Origin: Rudaea sp. 3F27F6
GTDB taxonomy: Bacteria > Pseudomonadota > Gammaproteobacteria > Xanthomonadales > Rhodanobacteraceae
NCBI RefSeq assembly: GCF_005503555.1
Contig: NZ_SCNG01000007.1
Location: 1-64,000 of the forward strand
Direction of reading: 5' to 3'
Length of the DNA: 64,000 bases
In this document: piece by piece, positions 13,386 through 24,933 of the stretch
How the letters are laid out: every line of letters starts with the position of its first letter
Position numbering within the stretch: position 1 is the first letter of the stretch
The notes under the pieces: model-generated
Told to the model about the DNA's origin: nothing
Seen by the model: the letters and a program-made list of their open reading frames with translations, nothing else
Database searches by the model: none
Program-made: the position numbers and the translations under genes

Positions 13386-13414
13386 TTGCGCCGCGGCATT
13401 TTTCCGTGCATGAT
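13386..13414 (+). promoter_or_regulatory. Probable sigma-70 promoter of the arginine operon
   Basis: TTGCGC (13386-13391), a 17-base spacer and CATGAT (13409-13414) form a moderate sigma-70 match just past the end of the upstream gene. Transcription would start near 13421, shortly before the leader reading frame at 13441. Confidence 0.5.
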
Positions 13415-13440
13415 TGGCCGTCCAAACGACAGTACCCCCG

Positions 13441-13545
13441 ATGAATCAGCTCTTCGCCACCGTTGAAATCCTGTCCAGCGCCGATATGGCCGCGGGCATG
13501 ACGTCGCGCGCGCGTCGACCGACCACGACCAACACGGCCGGGTAA
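13441..13545 (+). CDS. Candidate leader peptide of the arginine operon
   Basis: This 34-codon frame begins with ATG 20 bases past the predicted transcription start and ends with TAA at 13543-13545. Codons 23-26 are Arg-Ala-Arg-Arg (TSRARRP) and codons 28-32 are Thr-Thr-Thr-Asn-Thr. A terminator follows 33 bases later, and the first structural gene starts 195 bases downstream. This is the layout of an attenuation leader. No clear Shine-Dalgarno site precedes the ATG, which weakens the call. Arg control would fit the operon; the Thr run resembles thr leaders, so a threonine signal is the alternative. Confidence 0.45.
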   Translation: MNQLFATVEILSSADMAAGMTSRARRPTTTNTAG

Positions 13546-13577
13546 GCTGTCGCACGATTTTCATGTGATTCGACGAT

Positions 13578-13605
13578 AAAAACCCGGCTCCGTGCCGGGT
13601 TTTTT
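13578..13605 (+). terminator. Terminator of a putative attenuator, with competing antiterminator arm
   Basis: AAAAACCCGGC (13578-13588), a 5-base loop and GCCGGGTTTTT (13594-13604) form a strong intrinsic terminator inside the untranslated leader. The 3-prime arm GCCGGGT also occurs at the end of the leader frame (13537-13543). It could pair there with ACCCGGC (13582-13588), giving a mutually exclusive antiterminator. The A-rich 5-prime side also makes it a terminator on the other strand. Confidence 0.7.
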
Positions 13606-13740
13606 GTTTTTGGGTTTTTCACCGAGGCTTGCAGATGGCAATTCGACAGCACCTTGCGGCGATCCATCGCCGAAAGACAACCGGCCATCCGCAGCCGCAC
13701 TTTTCACAAAAAGCATTCTTCTTCGTAGAGCATTGACGAA

Positions 13741-14775
13741 ATGGCTATCCGACACTTTCTTACCACGCAGGATTGGACTCGCCCCGAACTCGACGCGCTG
13801 CTCGCACGCGCCGCCCAGTTCAAACAGCACAAGCTCGGCGACGAGCTGAAAGGCAAGGCGGTCGCCCTGCTGTTCTTCAACCCGTCGATGCGCACGCGCA
13901 CGAGCTTCGAGCTCGGCGCGTTCCAGCTCGGCGGCCATGCCGTCGTGCTGCAGCCCGGCAAGGACGCATGGCCGATCGAATTCGAACTCGGCACGGTGAT
14001 GGACGGCGAGACTGAAGAACACATCGCCGAAGTCGCGCGCGTGTTGTCCCGCTACGTCGATTTGATCGCCGTGCGTGCGTTCCCGAAATTCAAGGACTGG
14101 TCGATCGACCGCCAGGATCACGTGATCCATTCCTTCGCCAAGTACGCGACCGTGCCGGTGATCAACATGGAAACGATCACCCATCCGATGCAGGAACTCG
14201 CGCATATCCTCGCCCTGCAGCAGCACTTCGGCACCACGGATCTGCGCGGCAAGAAGTACGTGCTGACCTGGACCTACCATCCGAAGCCGCTCAATACGGC
14301 CGTGGCGAACTCCGCGCTGCAGATCGCCACGCGTTACGGCATGGACGTGACCCTGCTCTGCCCGACGCCCGAATACGCGCTCGACCAGCGCTATCTCGAT
14401 TTCGCCAAGCAGAACGTCGCCGAGAACGGCGGCAGCTTTGCAATCTCGCACGACGTCGATGCTACGTACAAAGGCGCCGACATCGTCTACGCGAAGAGCT
14501 GGGGCGCGCTGCCCTACTTCGGCAAGTGGGAAAACGAAAAGCCCATTCGCGACGCGCACCAGCATTTCATCGTCGACGAGCGCAAGATGGCGCTGACCAA
14601 CCACGGCGTGTTCAGCCACTGCCTGCCGCTGCGCCGCAACGTCAAGGCGACCGACGCGGTGATGGACTCGCCGGCCTGTATCGCGATCGACGAGGCCGAG
14701 AACCGGCTGCATGTGCAGAAGGCGGTGATGGCGACGCTGGCGCGCGGACAATCAGCAGTGAGCGGTGAGCGGTGA
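13741..14775 (+). CDS. argF': N-acetylornithine carbamoyltransferase
   Basis: This enzyme makes N-acetylcitrulline from N-acetylornithine and carbamoyl phosphate, replacing ordinary ornithine carbamoyltransferase. The 344 residues contain the carbamoyl-phosphate loop FFNPSMRTRTSFELG (47-60), HPMQELAHI (148-156) and HCLPLRRN (293-300). Glu92, which selects the acetylated substrate in the Xanthomonas enzyme, and Lys302, carboxylated there, are at the same positions. The insert WTYHPKPLN is also typical. It is first in the operon and 70 bases before argG. The last residues (AVSGER) are encoded by one arm of an inverted repeat. Confidence 0.95.
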   Translation: MAIRHFLTTQDWTRPELDALLARAAQFKQHKLGDELKGKAVALLFFNPSMRTRTSFELGAFQLGGHAVVLQPGKDAWPIEFELGTVMDGETEEHIAEVARVLSRYVDLIAVRAFPKFKDWSIDRQDHVIHSFAKYATVPVINMETITHPMQELAHILALQQHFGTTDLRGKKYVLTWTYHPKPLNTAVANSALQIATRYGMDVTLLCPTPEYALDQRYLDFAKQNVAENGGSFAISHDVDATYKGADIVYAKSWGALPYFGKWENEKPIRDAHQHFIVDERKMALTNHGVFSHCLPLRRNVKATDAVMDSPACIAIDEAENRLHVQKAVMATLARGQSAVSGER

Positions 14776-14883
14776 GCGGGAAACGGCGTCAGCTCCGCAC
14801 TGTCTCGATCTGATTCTTTCAACGATTTACTGGAAATGCATTCAATGACTAATCACTCCGACCGCTCACCGCTCACCGCTGAC
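14758..14883. repeat. Inverted repeat spanning the argF'/argG junction
   Basis: Two 22-base arms built from GTGAGCG-type units (14758-14779 and 14862-14883) are inverted copies with one mismatch and 82 bases between. The left arm covers the last codons and stop of argF'. The right arm lies inside the argG reading frame (Ser-Asp-Arg-Ser-Pro-Leu-Thr-Ala-Asp). In mRNA it would form a long stem enclosing the argG ribosome site. Confidence 0.85.
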
Positions 14884-16080
14884 CGTTCACAAAACCAAGA
14901 TATCGTCCTCGCCTTCTCCGGCGGCCTCGACACGAGCTTCTGCGTGCCGTACCTGCAAGAGCGCGGCTACCGCGTGCACACCGTGTTCGCCGATACCGGC
15001 GGCGTCGATGCGGAAGAACGCACCTTCATCGAAAACCGCGCGAAGGAACTCGGCGTCGCCAGCCACGTCACCGTCGACGGCGGACCGGCGATCTGGAACG
15101 GCTTCGTCAAACCGTTCGTGCAAGCGGGACAGGGCTATCAGGGCCAGTATCCGCTGCTCGTGTCCGACCGCTATCTGATCGTCGAGGCCGCGTTGAAGCG
15201 CTGCGACGAACTCGGCACCAAGTACATCGCGCACGGTTGCACCGGCATGGGCAACGATCAGGTGCGCTTCGACCTGACGATCAAGGCGCTCGGCGACTAC
15301 GTCATCGTCGCGCCGATCCGCGAAATCCAGAAAGAACACACGCACACGCGCGCCTACGAGCAGGACTATTTGGAGCAGCGCGGCTTCGGCGTGCGCGCCA
15401 AGCAGAAGAGCTACACGATCAACGAGAACCTGCTCGGCGTGACCATGTCGGGCGGCGAGATCGACCGCTGGGAAGCGCCCGGCGAAGGCGCGCGCGGCTG
15501 GAACGCACCGCGCAGCGAATGGCCGACCGCGCCGCTGCGCGCGACGATCGGCTTCACCGCAGGCGAAGCCGTGTCGCTCGACGGCGAAAAGCTCGCCGGC
15601 CACGAGATCCTCGCGCGGCTCAATCGCGAATTCGCCAAGTACGGCGTCGGCCGCGGCCTCTACACCGGCGACACCACGATCGGCCTCAAGGGCCGCATCA
15701 TCTTCGAAGCGCCCGGCCTGACCGCGCTGCTGACCGCGCATCGCGCGCTCGAAGAAGCAGTGCTGTCGAAACTGCAGAACCGCTTCAAGCCCGAAGTCGC
15801 GCGCGCCTGGGTCGAACTGGTCTATGAAGGTTTCTTCCACGATCCGCTCAAGGCCGACCTCGAAGCCTTCCTCGCGTCCTCGCAGACCAAGGTCAACGGC
15901 GAAGTGACATTGGAAACCAGCGGCGGCAGCGTCGGCGCGGTCGCGGTGAAATCGCCGCACATCCTCAATGCCAAGGGCGCGACCTATGCGCAGTCGGCCG
16001 ACTGGGGCGTGGAGGAAGCCGAGGGCTTTATCCGCCTCTATGGCATGAGTTCGACGTTGTGGGCCGAAGTGAACCGTTGA
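14845..16080 (+). CDS. argG: Argininosuccinate synthase
   Basis: ArgG joins citrulline and aspartate with ATP. The nucleotide loop [10 protein letters not shown] is at 22-31 instead of close to residue 10, because about 16 N-terminal residues derive from the inverted repeat. Other segments are [53 protein letters not shown] and [20 protein letters not shown] chose ATG at 14845, eight bases after TGGA; ATG at 14836 would add three residues. A stop at 16080 gives 411 residues. In this pathway deacetylation happens before ArgG acts, so the substrate is ordinary citrulline. Confidence 0.95.
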
Positions 16081-16087
16081 GACCGGA

Positions 16088-16537
16088 ATGAACGACACGA
16101 CCGCCCAATTGCGCATCAGCACAAACCGCGACGAGCTCGATCTCGCGTTGATCCACGACTTTCTTTCACGCGAGGCGTATTGGAGCCAAGGCATTCCGCT
16201 CGCAGTCGTGCAACGCGCGATAGAGAACTCGTTGTGCTTCGGCGGCTATCTTGAAGGCAAGCAAGTGGCGTTTGCGCGCGTCGTCAGCGACTACGCCACC
16301 TTCGGCTATCTCGCCGATGTATTCGTGATCGAATCCTGCCGCGGGCTCGGCTATGCGAAAGCAATCGTCGGCGCCGCGATGGACGAGCCGCGCCTGCAGG
16401 GTCTGCGGCGGATCATGTTGATGACGCGCGATGCGCACCCGCTCTACACGGGCTTTGGATTCACGCCCTTGTCCAAGCCCGGCAATGCGATGGAGATCAA
16501 TCGGCGGGATATCTATACGACGGCAGGTGCCCCATGA
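16088..16537 (+). CDS. GNAT-family N-acetyltransferase
   Basis: This 149-residue GNAT protein starts seven bases after argG and overlaps argE' by four bases. The acetyl-CoA fold is seen as GGYLEGKQVAFARVV, YLADVFVIESCRGLGYAKAI (motif A, with R-G-L-G-Y in place of RGxGxG/A) and LMTRDAHPLYTGFGF. It is embedded between argG and the acetylcitrulline deacetylase gene. Whether it has a role in arginine synthesis is unknown; the fused ArgB already has a synthase domain. The substrate cannot be told. Confidence 0.85.
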   Translation: MNDTTAQLRISTNRDELDLALIHDFLSREAYWSQGIPLAVVQRAIENSLCFGGYLEGKQVAFARVVSDYATFGYLADVFVIESCRGLGYAKAIVGAAMDEPRLQGLRRIMLMTRDAHPLYTGFGFTPLSKPGNAMEINRRDIYTTAGAP

Positions 16538-17655
16538 ACGCGTTGCTCGACAGCACCCTGCAACACCTGCGCGCCCTCGTCGCCTTCGACATGCGCAATC
16601 CTCCGCGCGAGATCGGCACGGGCGGCATTTTCGACTACCTGCGCGCGCATCTGCCGGGTTTCGACTGCACGGTCACCGACCACGGTGCCGGCGCGGTCAG
16701 CCTGTTCGCCGTGCGCGGCAAGCCGAAAGTGCTGTTCAACGTGCATCTCGACACCGTGCCCGATTCGCCGCACTGGACTGCGAGCCCGTTCGAGCTGCGC
16801 GTAAATGACACACATGCGGTCGGCCTCGGCGCCTGCGACATCAAGGGCGCGGCGGCGGCACTGCTGACCGCGGCGGCGCAGACGCAGGGCGATGCCGCTT
16901 ACCTGTTCACGACCGACGAGGAAGCAAACGATGCCCGGTGCATTGCTGCTTTTCTCTCCCGAATCGCGAATCCCGAATCGCGAATCCCGGCTTTTGAAAC
17001 CATCATCGTCGCCGAACCGACGCGCGGCGAAGCGGTGCTCGCCCATCGCGGCATCAGTTCAGTGCTGATGCGCTTCAAAGGCCGCGCCGGGCATGCCTCG
17101 GGCGGCAATGCCGCGGCGGACAGCGCGCTGCATCAAGCCATCCGCTGGGGTCAGCACGCGCTCGACTACGTCGAATCGCAGGCGCACCAGCGTTTCGGCG
17201 GCCTGACCGGGCTACGCTTCAACATCGGCCGCGTCGAAGGCGGCATCAAGGCCAACATGATCGCGCCGAGCGCCGAAGTGCGCTTCGGTTTTCGCCCGCT
17301 GCCGTCGATGGATATCGATACGTTGCTGGCGACATTTCGCTCGGGCTTCGACCCGCAGGCCGCCGAATTCCAGGAAACATTTCGCGGCCCTTCGCTGCCG
17401 TCGGGCGACGTCGCCCAGGCCGAAGCGCGCCGGCTCAAGGCGCGCGACTTCGCCGACGAGGTCGGCCTCACCATCGGCAACGCGGTCGACTTCTGGACCG
17501 AAGCCTCGCTGTTCTCCCAGGCCGGCTACAGCGCGATCGTCTGCGGTCCGGGCGATATCGCGCAGGCGCATACCGCGGACGAATTCGTCGAGCTGTCCCA
17601 GCTACTGCAAGTCACCGAAAGCTACATCCACATTCTGAAATCGCAGGCCCGTTGA
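16534..17655 (+). CDS. argE': N-acetyl-L-citrulline deacetylase (ArgE-type, M20 family)
   Basis: It removes acetate from N-acetylcitrulline to give citrulline. The 373-residue M20 metalloenzyme shows His71-Leu-Asp73 (NVHLDTVP), Asp102 (ACDIKGA), Glu129-Glu130 (TTDEEAN) and Glu161 (VAEPTRG), plus RAGHASGG of the dimerisation domain. Assignment as the citrulline form rests on pairing with acetylornithine carbamoyltransferase in the same operon. Residues 142-154 ([13 protein letters not shown]) are encoded by a tandem repeat unit, giving an insertion between the catalytic Glu and the next strand. It overlaps the GNAT gene by four bases, with one base before argB. Confidence 0.92.
16961..16988 (+). 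repeat. Tandem 14-base repeat inside argE' coding sequence
   Basis: GAATCGCGAATCCC occurs twice in direct succession (16961-16974 and 16975-16988) within the argE' frame. The motif belongs to the same family as the palindromic GGGATTCGAGATT repeats found at 50964-51032 and 57891-57972 between ribosomal-protein genes. Confidence 0.75.
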
Positions 17656-17656
17656 A

Positions 17657-19009
17657 ATGGATACCAACACGCAAACCCGCCAGACCATCGTGCGCCTGCT
17701 CTCGAGCATGGGCAGCGCGAAGGAGATCGACCAATACCTGCGCCGCTTCTCGCAGCTCGACGCCAAGCGTTTCGCCGTGGTCAAGGTTGGCGGCGCGGTG
17801 CTGCGCGACGATCTCGACAATCTCGTCTCCTCGCTCGCCTTCCTGCAGCAGGTCGGCCTGACGCCGATCGTGATCCACGGCGCCGGCCCGCAGCTCGACG
17901 CCGAAATGACCGCCGCCGGCATCGTCAAGCAGACCATCGACGGCCTGCGCGTCACCTCGCCCGAGGCACTCGCGATCGTGCGCCGCGTGTCGCAGTCGGA
18001 AAACCTCAAACTCGTCGAAGCGCTGCAGAAGATCGACGCGCGTGCGACCTCGATCATCGGCGGCGTGTTCGAAGCGAGCTATCTCGACCAGCCGAAGTAC
18101 GGCCTCGTCGGCAAGGTCGAGAAGGTCAACCTCGCTTCGATCGAAGCGAGCCTCAACGCGGGATCAATCCCGGTGATCGCCAGCCTCGGCGAAACCCCGG
18201 CCGGACAGATTCTCAATATCAACGCCGACTTCGCCGCGAACGAACTGATCAAGGCGCTGCAGCCCTACAAGATCGTGTTCCTGACCGGCACGGGCGGCCT
18301 GCTCGACGACGCCGGCAACGTGATCGACTCGATCAACCTCGCCACAGAATACGAACACCTCAGTGCGCAGCCATGGATCAACGGCGGCATGCGCGTGAAG
18401 ATCGAGCAGATCAAGGACCTGCTCGACAAGCTGCCGCTGACCTCGTCGGTATCGATCACCAAACCGGCAGAACTTGCCAAAGAGCTGTTCACGCACAAGG
18501 GCTCGGGCACCTATATTCGCCGCGGCGAGCGCGTGCTGCGCGTGACCTCATGGAACGAACTCGATCTCGGCCGCATGCGCGGCCTGATCGAATCGAGCTT
18601 CACGCCGCGCACGCTTGCACCGGACTACTTCGAACGCACGCACTTGCTGCGCGCCTACGTGAGCGAAAACTATCGCGCCGCTGTGATCCTTTTGCAGGGC
18701 GGCGAGCATGTCTATCTCGACAAGTTCGCCGTGCTCGACGAAGCCCAGGGCGAAGGCCTCGGCCGCGCGGTCTGGCAGGTGATGCGCGACGAGACGCCGG
18801 CGCTCTTCTGGCGCTCGCGCCACGGCAACGTCATCAACCATTTCTACTACGCGGAGTCCGACGGCTGCTGCAAACTGCCGAGCTTCAAGGCGTTCTGGTA
18901 CGGCATTGAGGACTTCGCCGAGATCGAGGCCTGCGTCGAGTTCTGCCGCGAGAAAAAGCCGACCTTGATGGACAGTTCACTAAGTGATGGAAAGAAACAA
19001 GCTGCGTGA
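17657..19009 (+). CDS. argB: Bifunctional N-acetylglutamate kinase/synthase
   Basis: The N-terminal kinase domain (about 1-290) shows [43 protein letters not shown] and LTGTGGLLD. The C-terminal domain (about 300-435) is a GNAT synthase domain ([52 protein letters not shown]). Such fusions, first described in Xanthomonas, make and phosphorylate N-acetylglutamate, explaining the absence of argA or argJ. The length of 450 fits. It starts one base after argE' and overlaps the next gene by four bases. Confidence 0.94.
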
Positions 19010-19485
19010 ATGACGAGTCGCCAGAGTTCGTCGAGCCGACCGCGGAGAATCGAAGAAATTTCGCAATCCGCTGGCTGACCGCGGGCTTGGTCTTGGCCCT
19101 TGCTTGCGTACTGGGGAAAATCGGCTTCGCGTCTCTGGGCTCTCTGCCGGATTGCGATCGTCTTCCTTACATTCGCATGATGATGGTCGCCTTCGTGGGA
19201 TTGCCTTTCATCCTTGGCGTGTATGTTTTCAGACTGGGCCGAAAGACATTGTCGACTCAGCGTTGGGTTCCGCCGACGCCGCCGATGTTCTTCCGCCAGC
19301 GCATCGGCAAGGGGCGCAAGGCGCGCTGGATAGCTTATTACCTGTTGGCCGCAGGCGTAGTGAATATGACTGCTCCGATTTGGGGCGGATACTTGCTCTA
19401 CCGTTCCGGACTATTTTCGCCACCCGCCAAAGAATCCGCGTGTGGCAGGTCTCAAATACCGCAAACGACAAAAGAATCATTTTGA
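19006..19485 (+). CDS. Small membrane protein of unknown function between argB and argC
   Basis: This 159-residue protein starts at GTG overlapping the argB stop by four bases and stops one base before argC, so it is translated as part of the operon. Three hydrophobic segments are visible (about 25-43, 58-75 and 110-130), separated by basic stretches ([27 protein letters not shown]). I do not recognise the family. Nothing in it suggests arginine metabolism; it may be a later insertion or a transporter accessory protein. Confidence 0.6.
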
Positions 19486-19486
19486 A

Positions 19487-20482
19487 ATGAGCGCAAAAAC
19501 TAAATCCGTCGGCATCGTCGGCGCACGCGGCCACACCGGCGCCGAACTGATCAAGCTGATCGCGCGGCATCCACATCTCGAACTCGCCTTCGTTTCTTCG
19601 CGCGAGCTCGACGGACAACGTCTGGCCGACCACAACGCCGACTATCGCGGCGAGCTGCGTTACGAGAATCTGTCGCACGAAGATGTCGCGTCGAAGCGTG
19701 CCGACGTCGTCGTGCTCGCCTTGCCGAACGGCAAGGCGGAAGGCGTGGTCAAGGCCATCGACGAGGCCAAGGCCGATCCCATCATCGTCGATCTCAGCGC
19801 CGACTACCGTTTCGACAGCACGTGGTACTACGGCTTGCCCGAGCTGACCCGCGACGCGTATCGCGGCCAGCGCCGGATCAGCAACCCGGGCTGTTACGCC
19901 ACCGCGATGCAGCTTGCGATCGCGCCGCTGAAAGATCTGCTCGCCGGGCCGCCCGCGTGTTTCGGCGTATCGGGCTACTCGGGCGCGGGCACGACGCCGT
20001 CGGACAAGAACAATCCCGAGAAACTGCGCGACAACCTGATGCCCTACTCGCTCGTCAATCATATGCACGAGCGCGAAGTCACCCGGCATCTCGACGTTCC
20101 GGTCGAATTCATGCCGCATGTCGCGCCGCATTTCCGTGGCATCACGATGACGGTGAACCTATGGCTCACCCAGGCGCAGACGCTCGAAGCGGTCAAGGCA
20201 CGCTATGTGGAAAAGTATAAAAACGAAGCGCTGATCGAAGTGATCGACGACGCGCCGTGGGTCAGCCATATCGCCAACCGGCACGGCGCGCAGATCGGCG
20301 GTTTCACCTTGGCGCCGGGCGGCAAGCGCATCGTCGTCGTCGCCACGCTCGACAACTTGCTCAAGGGTGCGGCGACTCAGGCGATGCAGAATCTCAACCT
20401 TGCGCTCGGCTACTCTGAGTTGGAAAGCGTTCCGCTTGGCTCCCTTCTCCACTCGGAAGAGAGTGCTCCGGCGAACGCGTGA
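19487..20482 (+). CDS. argC: N-acetyl-gamma-glutamyl-phosphate reductase
   Basis: ArgC reduces N-acetylglutamyl phosphate to the semialdehyde with NADPH. The 331-residue protein has the nucleotide motif [14 protein letters not shown] (8-21), VDLSADYRF and the catalytic Cys136 (SNPGCYATA). [12 protein letters not shown] and [17 protein letters not shown] are also seen. ATG at 19487 follows the previous stop by one base; the frame extends 15 codons upstream without ArgC-like sequence. The next gene, argH, is 111 bases on, behind a repeat. Confidence 0.95.
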
Positions 20483-20529
20483 GAAGTAGCCCTACAATCA
20501 TAAATAGCGTTTTCAAGCTGCAACGTCTT

Positions 20530-20574
20530 TCCCTCATCCGGCGCTGCGCGCCACCTTCTCCCGGTGGGAGAAGG
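20530..20574. repeat. REP-like palindromic element between argC and argH
   Basis: The element has two adjacent hairpins, GGCGC/GCGCC (20540-20552) and CCTTCTCCC/GGGAGAAGG (20554-20574, loop GGT), within the motif CCCTCATCCGGCGC. The CCCTCATCC...CTTCTCCC pattern is a common dispersed intergenic repeat in many GC-rich proteobacteria. It sits 20 bases before the argH start. Confidence 0.7.
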
Positions 20575-20593
20575 AAAGATAAAGAGCCTTTCT

Positions 20594-21898
20594 ATGTCTG
20601 ATTTGTTGTGGCAAAAACCCGGCGTCGAAACCGACGCGCGCATCATGCGATTCCTCGCCGGCGACGACGTCGTGCTCGACCGCGAATTCTTTCTCCATGA
20701 TATCGATGCGAGCCGCGCGCATGTCGAGGGCCTGGCGCGCATCGGCGTAGTCTCACAGGACGAGAGTGACGCCATCGCGCGTGAGCTGGCCGCGCTTGCT
20801 GCGGATTTCGAAAGCGGCGCCTTCGTCCTTGATGAAAAATACGAAGACGGCCACTCCGCGATCGAAGCGCGTCTGACCGAGCGTCTCGGCGATGCCGGCC
20901 GCAAGGTGCATACCGGGCGCAGCCGTAACGACCAGATCCTCGTCGCGACACGCCTCTGGCTCAAGGCCAAGCTGTCAGCACTACACGCCTTGTGCACCGA
21001 CGTCGCCAAGGTATGCCTCGCGCGCGCCGCGCAGGACGCGCTGCCGCTGCCGGGCTATACACATCTGCAGCGCGCCGTCGTCTCGTCGACCGCGATGTGG
21101 TATGCGGGCTATGCCGAGAGCTTTATCGACAATGCACGCCGCGCCCTCGACACCTTCGCCTGGATCGACGCCAATCCGCTCGGCACCGCTGCCGGCTACG
21201 GCGTGAATCTCAAGCTCGACCGCGAGCACACGACGCACGCGCTCGGTTTTGCGCGCATGCAGGTGTCGCCGATCTACGCGCAGCTCTCGCGTGGCAAGTT
21301 CGAGATGGCCGCGCTCGACGCGCTTGGCACCGCCCTGCTCGATCTACGCCGCCTCGCTTGGGACCTGTCGCTGTTCACCACGGCGGAATTCGGCTTCGTC
21401 CACCTGCCGCCCGAGTACACGACCGGCTCGTCGATCATGCCGAACAAGCGCAACCCCGACGTGGTCGAGCTGATGCGCGCCAGTTACGCCAGCGTCGCCG
21501 CGGGCCGCGCCGAGATCGAACAACTGCTGTCCCTACCGTCCGGCTACCAGCGCGACCTGCAGTTCTCCAAGGGCGGCCTCTATCACGGCTTCGCGCGCGG
21601 TCTCGCCGCCCTCGAACTGTTGCCCGACCTGCTCGCGCGCATGCAGTGGAACGCATCGGCGATGCGCGCGGCGATCGATCCGGCGATGTACGCGACCGAC
21701 GTCGCGATCGAGGCGGCCATCGCCGGCGTGCCGTTTCGCGAGGCATACAAGCAGGCCGCGGCTGCGGCGAACGAAGCCGGTCAGGGACGTACGCCGGAGC
21801 AGAGTCTCGCCGCGCGTGTTTCGCCGGGCGCGGGAACCGATTTGCGGCTCGACGAATTGCGCGTGCGGCTCGACGAATTGAACAAGGCGAACAGATAA
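20594..21898 (+). CDS. argH: Argininosuccinate lyase
   Basis: ArgH splits argininosuccinate into arginine and fumarate. The 434-residue protein shows [26 protein letters not shown], the His-containing [16 protein letters not shown] and the signature [12 protein letters not shown] (flexible catalytic loop with Ser). I prefer ATG at 20594. A GTG at 20564 lies inside the palindromic repeat and would add ten unconserved residues. It is the last arginine gene; 603 bases of repeats and a dead gene separate it from proB. Confidence 0.95.
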
Positions 21899-21903
21899 CA
21901 CAT

Positions 21904-21955
21904 CGTCATTCCAGCGGCTTTCAACAGCCCAAGGGCTGGTCAAGCTGGAATCCAG
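21904..21955. repeat. Palindromic repeat, 5-prime side of the GIY-YIG pseudogene
   Basis: CGTCATTCCAGC begins the element. TTCCAGC (21909-21915) pairs with GCTGGAA (21944-21950), with an inner stem CAGCCC/GGGCTG (21925-21938). It is the inverted form of the TTCCAGCTTGCGCTGGAA element found downstream at 22293-22319. Confidence 0.7.
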
Positions 21956-21969
21956 ATCTCGAATCCGAT

Positions 21970-22275
21970 ATGCAATCAAGAAACCCTGCGTCTACATCCT
22001 CGCCAGTGGTTGGAGTGGCACTTTAGGAGTGGCACTTTATACGTAGGCGTAACTCGGACTTGGTCAAACGCGTCTACGAACATAAAAACGATCTTGTCGA
22101 CGGATTCACCAAGAAGTATCAGGTCCATCTTCTTGTTTGGCACGAGCAGCATGCGACCATCGAATCAGCGATCGCTCGAGAAAAAGCCATCAAGGCTTGG
22201 AAGCGCGAATGGAAGATCCGACTGATCGAAGAGTCCAACTCGGGTTGGCGCGATTTGTACCCTGAGCTGGTTTGA
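21970..22275 (+). pseudogene. GIY-YIG nuclease family, broken
   Basis: The translation across frames gives a short UPF0213-type GIY-YIG protein: KKPCVYILASGW (the GIY half), LYVGVTR (the YIG half), then VKRVYEHKNDLVDGF, ESAIAREKAIKAWKREWK and GWRDLYPELV. The reading frame is broken by a 14-base tandem duplication (GGAGTGGCACTTTA at 22012-22025 and 22026-22039) and again near 22056, where a base is missing before the LVKR segment. The start may also be shifted. It is flanked by inverted TTCCAGC palindromes. Confidence 0.8.
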
Positions 22276-22522
22276 AATACGGAAGGCAAGAGCTGGATTC
22301 CAGCTTGCGCTGGAATGACGAGCTACACGAAGACGGCGAAAAATAAACTCATGAGCGAAAGGTTCTCCGAAGCTGATCGAGGAGTCCAGTTCGAATTAGC
22401 ACGATTTGTGCCCTGAGTTGGTTTGAAACACGAAAGGCAAGAGCTGGATTCCAGCTTGCGCTGGAATGACGAACTAAACGAAGACGGCGAAAAATAAACT
22501 CATGAGCGAAAGGTTCTCCGAA
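22222..22522 (+). repeat. 151-base tandem duplication covering the start of proB
   Basis: The segment 22222-22371 recurs at 22373-22522 (offset 151 bases). Each copy contains the 3-prime end of the GIY-YIG gene, the TTCCAGC palindrome, an AT-rich stretch and ATGAGCGAAAGGTTCTCCGA, the first codons of proB. Only the second copy continues into proB. The GIY-YIG tail part has about ten differences between copies, whereas the proB-proximal half has about two. Confidence 0.85.
22293..22319. repeat. Palindromic repeat, 3-prime side of the GIY-YIG pseudogene
   Basis: TTCCAGC (22298-22304) and GCTGGAA (22309-22315) form a hairpin with loop TTGC, followed by TGACG. An identical copy lies at 22444-22470 within the second unit of the 151-base duplication. 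With the element at 21904-21955 it brackets the pseudogene as an inverted pair. Confidence 0.75.
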
Positions 22523-23635
22523 CAAACGCTGCCCGTCTGGCGCCGCGCCGTCCTCAAAGTCGGCAGCAATCTGCTGACTGCGGGCGGCCGCGAGTTGTCG
22601 CCGCAGCATGCGCGAGGCTTGGCCGATTTCGTTGTTGCGTCACGCGCAGCCGGGCGGCAGGTCGTCATCGTTTCCTCGGGCGCTGTGGCCGCGGGACGGC
22701 CGCGTGTGAAGGAAGACCTCGGCGGCCTCGTCGCGCGTCAGGCGCTCGCCGCGCTCGGACAGACGCGCATGGTAGCGCTGTGGCAGGAACTGCTCGGCGC
22801 AACGCCGGTCGCCCAGGTACTGCTCGCCCACGACGACCTGCGCAATCGCCGCCGCTATCTCAATGCCCGTAACACACTGCTCGAACTGCTACGCCTCGAC
22901 GCCGTGCCGGTCATCAACGAGAACGACACGGTCGCGGTGGAAGAACTGAAGCTCGGCGACAACGACAACCTCGCGGCGATTGTCGCCGCCCTGGTCGATG
23001 CCGATCTGCTCCTGATCGCGAGCGACGTCGACGGCCTCTACGACGCGCACCCGCAGCTCAACCCGCAGGCGAAGCCGGTCGAAACGGTCGCGGCTGTCGT
23101 TCCGGAGATTCTCGCCATGGCGGGCGCCGCCGGCAGCGCTCATGGCACCGGCGGCATGCACACAAAACTCGAAGCGGCGGCGAAAGCCGCGAAGGCCGGC
23201 ATCACCACCGTGCTGTTCAACGGCACGAATGCGGAAACGGTGGCCCTGCTCGGCGCGGGCGCATTCCGCGGCACGCGCTTCGGCGCGGCGAGTTCACGTC
23301 TGGCCGCACGCAAGTACTGGCTGCGCCATGCGCCGGGCAGCGACGGCCGCCTGCGTGTCGATGACGGCGCGATGCGCGCTGTCGTCGCCGGCAAGTCGCT
23401 ACTGCCGGGAGGCATCGTCGCGGTCGACGGCGAGTTCGCGCGCGGCGACATCGTCGAGATCGTCTGCGACGGCAACGCCATTGCGCGCGGCCTGGTTCAG
23501 TACAATGCCGGCGAGGTACGGCGGCTGGCCGGAAAGCAGTCTCGCGATATCGAGGCGACGCTCGGCTTCAGCTACGGCGATACGGTGATGCGCCGCGACG
23601 ATCTGGTGATCTTGAGCGATGGAGTGACGGCATGA
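22502..23635 (+). CDS. proB: Glutamate 5-kinase
   Basis: ProB phosphorylates glutamate in the first step of proline synthesis. The 377-residue protein has an amino-acid kinase domain ([49 protein letters not shown] in parts, [12 protein letters not shown]) and a C-terminal PUA domain (about 280-370). A duplicated ATG and first six codons lie 151 bases upstream, a remnant of tandem duplication. The stop overlaps the proA start by four bases. Confidence 0.95.
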
Positions 23636-24933
23636 ATGCCGCAATCGAAACGGCGGGACAACTCGCGCAAACGGACATCCGCACGCTCGCGCTCGCAGCG
23701 CGCGATGCCGGCGCAGCCGTGGCGGCGTTGTCCAGCGCGGCGAAGCGCGACGTTCTGCACGCGATGGCCGCTGCGCTCGCAGCGCAGTCGAGCGCCATCC
23801 TCGCGGCGAATGCGCTCGACGTCGAAGCCGCGCAGGCCAAGGGCCTCGCCGCGGCAATGATCGACCGCCTGCGCCTCGACGATGCACGCGTTGCCGGCAT
23901 CGTCGCCGCAGTGCGCGAGATTGCCGACCTGCCCGACCCCGTCGGACAGGTCACGCGCCGCGAGCAGCGACCGAACGGCTTGGCGATCGAGCGGGTGCGC
24001 ATACCCCTCGGCCTTATCGCAATGATCTACGAGTCGCGCCCCAACGTGACCGCCGATGCGGCCGCGCTGTGCTTCCACGCCGGCAATGCCGTACTGCTGC
24101 GCGGCGGCTCGGAAGCCTGGCACAGTAACCGTGCAATCGCGGCCGCACTGCGCTCGGCGCTGCGCGCGCACGGCGTGGCCGAAGCGGTGATCACCCTCGT
24201 CGAAGATCTGCGCCGCGAGACGGTGATGGCCCTGCTGCAACTGACCGACATCGTCGACCTCGCAATACCGCGCGGCGGCGTCGGCCTGATCCGCTTCGTC
24301 GCCGAGCACGCGCGTGTGCCGGTGATTAAACATTATCAGGGTGTGTGCCATCTCTACGTCGATGCGGATGCCGACCCCGACCTCGCCCTGCGTCTGGCGA
24401 TCGACGGCAAGACGACGCGTCCCTCGGCCTGCAACGCGCTCGAAACGCTGCTCGTGCACAAGGATATCGCCGCATCTTTTCTGCCTCGCGTCGCGCGCGC
24501 CTTGACCGCGAAGAACGTCGAGCTGCGCGGTGACGATGCCAGCCGTAAACTTGTCGCGGAGATGAAACCGGCGAGCGAGGACGACTACGCCGCGGAATTC
24601 CTCGACCTGATTCTCGCCGTACGTGTGGTCGACGATCTCGACGCCGCGATCGCACACGTCAAGCGCTATGGCTCCGATCACACCGAAGTGATCGCGACGC
24701 GCAACGACGCAGCGGCGGAAAAATTCGTCGATGCGCTGCGCTCGGCGGTTGTGCTGGTCAACGCCTCGTCGCGCTTCTCCGACGGCGGCGAATTGGGCCT
24801 CGGCGCCGAGATCGGCATTTCGACCACGCGCCTGCATGCCTATGGCCCGATGGGCGCCGAATCGCTGACGATCGAGCGCTACGTCGTGCGCGGCAACGGC
24901 CAGGTGCGCCATGCTGAGTCGGAAAAAATTTGA
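23632..24933 (+). CDS. proA: Gamma-glutamyl phosphate reductase
   Basis: ProA reduces glutamyl phosphate to glutamate semialdehyde with NADPH, the second step of proline synthesis. The 433 residues include [41 protein letters not shown] and the catalytic-Cys segment [35 protein letters not shown] follows near the C-terminus. The four-base overlap with proB indicates coupled translation. Glutamate semialdehyde links this to the arginine genes upstream, as both pathways start from glutamate. Confidence 0.95.

Follow-up and report, generated by a model that had tools for sequence, protein, structure and literature searches.

The usual teaching is that ArgR controls bacterial arginine synthesis. 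What, then, governs an arginine operon that is preceded by a short reading frame with several Arg codons and by a strong terminator? Such a locus lies in the window analyzed here, a 64-kb stretch of Rudaea sp. 3F27F6 DNA (NZ_SCNG01000007.1), whose positions serve as coordinates throughout. An earlier note on this DNA had proposed the region as a candidate attenuator controlled through Arg codons. The observation behind that proposal, comprising a leader frame, a terminator and a copy of one terminator arm, is real, and comparison with relatives supports the interpretation.

The ArgR family PF02863 was not found in the host genome. Across the host's order, whose families are coded f1–f12, PF02863 was detected in 8 of 200 sampled genomes, all eight belonging to f12, by a search that recovered it in E. 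coli and seven other positive controls. Two f12 loci were inspected; no leader was found in either, and they carry a distant carbamoyltransferase (40–41% identity) behind an apparent argD.

Layout of the leader and operon

All features of the locus lie on the forward strand. A −35 element, TTGCGC (13386–13391), is followed after a 17-nt spacer by a −10 element, CATGAT (13409–13414). The promoter claimed in the note thus exists as a promoter-like pair, but a consensus promoter scan did not list it. Transcription would start near 13421, ~7 nt past the −10 element, giving a 5′ UTR of ~20 nt. The leader frame (13441–13545) comprises 34 codons and a stop, and its translation is MNQLFATVEILSSADMAAGMTSRARRPTTTNTAG. 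The three Arg codons noted previously are present, exactly at positions 23, 25, and 26 (13507–13518; CGC from 13507, CGT from 13513, and CGA from 13516), and are putatively regulatory. The stop codon TAA (13543–13545) overlaps the heptamer GCCGGGT (13537–13543), hereafter A2, the 5′ arm of a candidate antiterminator. As the note had pointed out, this heptamer is duplicated: it recurs from 13594 in the 3′ arm of the terminator (T3, 13594–13605 together with the T run). The 5′ arm of the terminator (T5, 13578–13588) would be common to both structures, and an apical hairpin at 13549–13574 is predicted within the antiterminator when the RNA is folded with a ribosome placed at CGA. The predicted intrinsic terminator before the first structural gene (13578–13605; hairpin 13578–13604 with 11 pairs and a 5-base loop, T tail) is as strong as had been claimed, ranking first of the 15 listed in a 10-kb scan, for which shuffles give 9.0. 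The leader fold as a whole is not unusually stable (z −0.20).

The first operon gene (13741–14775) encodes what we take to be an N-acetylornithine carbamoyltransferase (AOTCase), and the remaining genes (14836–24933) are presumably argG, a GNAT gene, argE, a NAGS-NAGK fusion (argB), argC, argH, proB, and proA. Within the operon, argG is separated from argE by the presumed GNAT-like acetyltransferase gene (16088–16537). Further features were noticed in the gap between terminator and AOTCase. The segment 13635–13697 contains a near-copy of the gene start (ATGGCAATTCGACAG vs. ATGGCTATCCGACAC) and two palindromic repeats (at 13657 and 13682), and the gap is ~100 nt shorter in two near relatives (L004, L031) than in the window. 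Elements resembling those at 13635–13697 were seen by eye in Dokdonella loci.

The leader peptide is under frame-specific selection

To compare leaders among close relatives, 110 AOTCase loci were assembled, namely 30 from 147 family genomes (window included) and the best 80 of 488 relatives; the two sets partly share genomes, and same-genome duplicates are counted in the 110. A leader frame lies directly upstream of AOTCase in 110/110 loci, representing 98 distinct leaders; the frame and its Arg codons, whose loss in relatives would have spoken against an attenuator, thus persist. The search used a loose anchor, as a stricter one missed two leaders (L078, L081) through residue changes. One identical leader sequence is shared by a same-genus genome (L003, genome G008) and Rudaea cellulosilytica DSM 22992 (L032), whose AOTCases are 93% identical to that of the window.

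Conservation centers on a core at codons 12–27 (SSADMAAGMTSRARRP, 13474–13521) with the consensus S/T-S/A-A-x-M-A-A/S-G-M-T-S-R-A-R-R-P; in 98/98 distinct leaders no change is seen at Ser 22, Arg 23, Arg 26, or two Ala. Among 51 representatives, pN/pS of the core is 0.33–0.35 in the leader frame, compared with 1.2 and 2.5 when it is read in the two alternative frames, and falls to 0.05–0.06 in frame for TSRARRP; the flanks are relaxed, with 1.25–1.29 for the preceding seven codons and ~0.8 for the tail. On account of this frame-specific purifying selection, we take it that the frame is translated and that selection acts on its peptide. No Pfam or NCBIfam family matched the window leader at E up to 1. 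The stop lies 16 codons past the core Gly in 89/98 leaders. In another 7/98 the frame ends nine bases earlier, and the A2 copy is kept, as GCTGGGT in six and GCTGGGC in one.

The note was right that a clear ribosome site is lacking. A near-leaderless mRNA would explain this: a loosely defined −35/−10 pair, found by a looser search without shuffle control, precedes 91/98 leader starts, and the distance from −10 to start codon is 7–10 nt in 63 of these 91. Transcripts of many species are therefore probably leaderless or nearly so.

Arg codon 26 is almost always CGA

Codon choice at the Arg positions is uneven. Codon 26 reads CGA in 97/98 distinct leaders, and Arg 23 and 25 are CGT or CGC, except for one His (at position 23, 50 leaders have CGT and 48 CGC). 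CGA is rare elsewhere: eleven genes of the window use it for 7 of their 279 Arg codons, and the 110 AOTCase genes for 23 of 2182. The host genome gave 48 tRNA matches, in which the tRNA-Arg anticodons are ACG, CCG, TCT, and CCT, and none is TCG; CGA should therefore be read by the ACG tRNA. Reading of CGA by this tRNA is slow wobble reading. The rare codon CGA thus appears to be selected as a sensor. A run of Thr codons, which the note had listed as a difficulty, turned out to be incidental: codons 28–30 are not conserved. Their variation among leaders also led us to reject the Thr run as a candidate sensor.

Covariation supports an antiterminator sharing the terminator 5′ arm

The note had proposed that the two competing stems be compared across relatives. 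Both persist, and the antiterminator copy and the terminator arms covary. RNAalifold on a MAFFT alignment reported two-sided changes for only 1/16 pairs, because the alignment had shifted the terminator arms by a single base, and pairing was therefore scored on anchored arms. A2 starts a median of 21 nt past the first base of the CGA codon. When counted in the best of several registers, A2 and T5 form seven Watson–Crick pairs in 74/98 leaders, six plus one GU in 14, and fewer in 10; in one fixed register, seven Watson–Crick pairs are found in 67/98 and seven standard pairs in 82/98. An exact 7-base complement of T5 occurs at 0 of 22,932 upstream control positions, and the Watson–Crick share of A2:T5 is 0.953, compared with a mean of 0.89 and a maximum of 0.913 in 2000 row shuffles. 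The variable site agrees across A2, T5, and T3, reading T-A-T in 58 leaders and C-G-C in 38; the exceptions, with T-G-C, are two leaders (L098, L099) that keep a GU pair. On the 51-row AOTCase tree the A2 state requires two changes, of which one separates the Rhodanobacteraceae side from all others and the second falls in Luteimonas. Covariation thus supports, at the level of sequence, an antiterminator that shares the terminator 5′ arm.

A third element is variable. The position of the protector 5′ strand (codons 27–30, 13519–13530) is weak in the window, and in this respect the note was correct in missing a convincing protector stem, but many relatives do have a covarying one. In the 60 CTGGG-type leaders, CCG(G/T)..CCC at codons 27–31 can pair with GGGT.A(C/A)CGG at and after A2, with a variable pair that is G-C in 49, T-A in seven, and other in four; in L098 the protector reaches nine consecutive pairs. 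The 38 CCGGG-type leaders, to which the window belongs, are without a covarying version, and some of them have another protector, e.g., CCGGAA/TTCCGG. Two f4 leaders (L114, L115) end right after RARRPG; by eye, their pairing seems shifted to the register GGGTTTC/GAAGCCC, with an ACCCGG/CCGGGT protector.

Folding of truncated RNAs gave median A2:T5 pairing of 0.19 in the free RNA, 0.72 with a ribosome at CGA, and 0.00 with a ribosome at the stop. At the level of individual leaders, a ribosome at CGA raised A2:T5 pairing by >0.1 in 36/98 and lowered it in 13. In the window, pairing is already 0.96 in the free RNA (0.98 with the ribosome at CGA), and its off state must therefore rest on a ribosome covering A2. 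Equilibrium folds of the full-length RNA favor the terminator whatever the ribosome state, with median pairing of 0.996–0.999 (0.998 without a ribosome, 0.996 when one is placed at CGA); antitermination would therefore have to be kinetic.

Distribution across the order

A nucleotide pattern encoding MTSRARR, with CGA as its last codon, has a single exact match per genome in 113/250 genomes of the order, including 52/52 in f1, 53/53 in f2, 3/3 in f3, and 5/10 in f4, with 0/132 in f5–f12. For 30 loci fetched by the leader pattern alone, AOTCase lies 77–194 nt downstream in 30/30. Class-wide, the pattern was found in 5/369 genomes, all f1 or f2, and in 0/364 class genomes outside the order. Of the five f4 genomes lacking the pattern, three encode MTSRARR all the same, with CGT, and the other two (G195, G213) offered no upstream sequence to read; within f4 the core M-T-S-R-A-R-R is kept, and the following residue is P, C, R, or T. 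In the host genome, the leader matches exactly only at the window site; with up to two mismatches, 70 matches compared with 45 for a reversed control are not informative.

Other families place other peptides before AOTCase (f5, f7, f8, f9, f10, and f11; e.g., NPRRRRV, ALRRRRRL, IRRLRRP, and VVRRRRP). A strong terminator is present in 46/69 f5–f11 loci, and all 46 have a frame with RR. Leaders with at least four Arg were found in 37 of these 46, compared with 6.4% of shuffles. Likewise, 27/46 have an A2 copy of seven or more bases, compared with 1.5% of shuffles; the other 19 have no seven-base copy. As A2 is read in different frames here (RAG*, GWVA), it is kept as RNA. The 23/69 loci without a strong terminator were excluded from the shuffles, and some of them (L162, L208, L213, L222, L263) nonetheless show an Arg-rich leader. 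No strong terminator was found upstream of AOTCase in the f6 genome and in 17/26 f10 loci (e.g., L160, L167). In 43 f5–f11 leaders, picked by eye from the 69 loci for a clear Arg run, 76 of 233 Arg codons are CGA; the gene baseline for CGA comes from the window and the 110 AOTCase loci, not from f5–f11 genomes. At one f8 locus (L162, genome G153), promoter region, Arg-rich leader, and switch start are seen as two tandem copies flanking an N, which may reflect the assembly.

A probable ribosome-mediated attenuator responding to Arg-tRNA supply

These findings are best read as a trp/his-type transcription attenuator in which the ribosome probably senses the supply of Arg-tRNA. Comparison of the leaders provides its parts, namely a frame selected as coding sequence, its Arg and CGA codons, and the covarying A2, T5, T3, and protector strands; from these we infer the stalling site, the arginine response, and the amount of readthrough. 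Translation of the leader RNA would accompany its transcription. Under arginine shortage, the ribosome would stop at the Arg codons, most likely at the slow CGA codon 26, where it would cover the protector strand and leave A2 free. A2 could then pair with T5 before T3 is made, the terminator would fail, and polymerase would continue into AOTCase and the genes behind it. With ample arginine, the ribosome would reach the stop codon within A2 and cover it, such that T5 would pair with T3 and transcription would terminate. Without translation, the protector, in relatives having one, would hold A2, likewise resulting in termination.

A possible contribution of the nascent peptide

Codon stalling would not need a conserved peptide, and GMTSRARR, frozen in four families, is more than it requires. 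The nascent GMTSRARR might itself stall or slow the ribosome as an arrest peptide, perhaps with arginine, ornithine, or another tunnel ligand, so that the switch would read the peptide and not only Arg-tRNA charging. We regard this as possible rather than probable; it can add to the attenuator described above instead of replacing it. Conservation spans ~15 residues and ends at RR(P), the predicted stall, with free flanks, and thus lies in the chain just upstream of the presumed stall position, where an arrest peptide would be expected to show it. Synonymous sites vary, hence conservation is not just that of the RNA, and f4 keeps M-T-S-R-A-R-R while the next residue varies. Conversely, f5–f11 keep unrelated Arg runs and therefore seem to need no special peptide, and fixation of CGA points to decoding. 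In short, peptide constraint in f1–f4 stops at the predicted stall, and f5–f11 keep little besides Arg. A control for peptide conservation was sought in 30 hisG loci, among which no usable His-run leader was found.

In the families with frozen GMTSRARR, both elements could be combined in a hybrid sensor, in which an arrest peptide holds the ribosome at CGA, such that small falls in charging of Arg-tRNA(ACG) flip the terminator, or in which free arginine acts on the nascent chain to the same end; we offer these two versions jointly as a tentative idea. Such a sensor might, speculatively, represent an Arg-codon attenuator evolving a peptide-dependent stall in a lineage without ArgR.

Relation to Xoo5 and remaining alternatives

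The Rfam family RF02242 (Xoo5) matches the leader in 9/13 loci given, at 53–147 bits, and fails in four; the window scores 18.3 bits, below the 50-bit gathering cut-off. By position and sequence, the Xanthomonas leader RNA is Xoo5. Other sub-threshold Rfam matches on the window, e.g., rnk_pseudo (29.9 bits, cut-off 55, E 0.0028), were rejected as terminator-driven chance. According to its original report, Xoo5 is an sRNA cloned from Xanthomonas oryzae, 124 nt long with its 5′ end mapped by RACE (PMC3039613). The RF02242 model is likewise 124 long and stops before the terminator, unlike the full leader; the AUG begins at base 3 of the model, which would place the 5′ end 2 nt before the start codon. 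Together with the −10 spacing of 7–10 nt, this end suggests a near-leaderless mRNA. RNA terminated at the hairpin is predicted to be ~158 nt in one locus (L042), compared with the cloned 3′ end at 124 nt, and the mapped end therefore misfits termination at the hairpin without trimming.

The Xoo5 report treats the RNA as an sRNA, and the words arginine, leader, and terminator are absent from its main text (PMC3039613). Could Xoo5 act in trans, with the arginine operon merely downstream? Rfam lists RF02242 as an sRNA, and the report describes Northern bands of ~130 and ~100 nt that depend on growth stage, both being present early and only the short one later (PMC3039613). The same report, however, describes Xoo5 as Hfq-independent and seven Xanthomonas sRNA deletion mutants, which may or may not include one of Xoo5, as having no obvious phenotype (PMC3039613). 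Frame-specific protein selection and the presence of AOTCase 77–194 nt downstream in 30/30 pattern-fetched loci further argue against this idea, which we consider very improbable.

Equally improbable is a microprotein that would act in trans after release, as reported for peTrpL (PMC7298713), which would fit the conserved core; the ends of the peptide are not conserved, however, its stop position is tied to A2, and each of the 113 matching genomes has one exact copy. A constitutive leader terminator without amino-acid control, e.g., for fixed-ratio readthrough, would suit a strong terminator that wins at equilibrium and a window without a good protector, but it leaves the Arg and CGA codons and the A2 copy tracking T5 unexplained and is most unlikely.

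Comparison with known systems

Among the closest known systems is orf34/SpeFL of Salmonella speF, a 34-residue leader whose consecutive Arg codons mediate arginine control, with pausing at Arg vs. pausing at the stop (PMC6386406). Unlike the leader described here, it acts on ornithine decarboxylase via Rho, masking of the RBS, and RNase G, and involves no intrinsic arginine-operon terminator (PMC6386406). The window leader is without the SpeFL Pfam domain DUF2618 (PF10940) at E up to 1. Pseudomonas carA, an arginine/pyrimidine gene, likewise has a leader peptide and may be subject to attenuation, but arginine is said to act transcriptionally there, attenuation is tied to pyrimidines, and a start codon of the leader was not found in P. 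syringae (PMC4997734). In full-text searches confined to open PMC papers, no paper among those listed describes attenuation by arginine upstream of this order's arginine operon.

Much of the order, including many plant-associated species, seems to run arginine synthesis by ribosome stalling, and the Rfam sRNA Xoo5 would gain a concrete function. Arginine would join Trp, His, Leu, Ile/Val, and Thr as an amino acid with its own attenuator, and a single operon would allow free Arg-run leaders to be compared directly with a frozen peptide leader. The trp, his, leu, ilv, and thr leaders combine a frame rich in codons for the end product with alternative protector, antiterminator, and terminator structures and a stop codon near the antiterminator arm. 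The leader described here resembles them in its Arg-codon frame, its alternative stems, and the position of its stop near the antiterminator arm. It differs in that arginine would be sensed, in that four families have frozen more of the peptide than its sensor codons, and in that its transcript is probably leaderless in many species.
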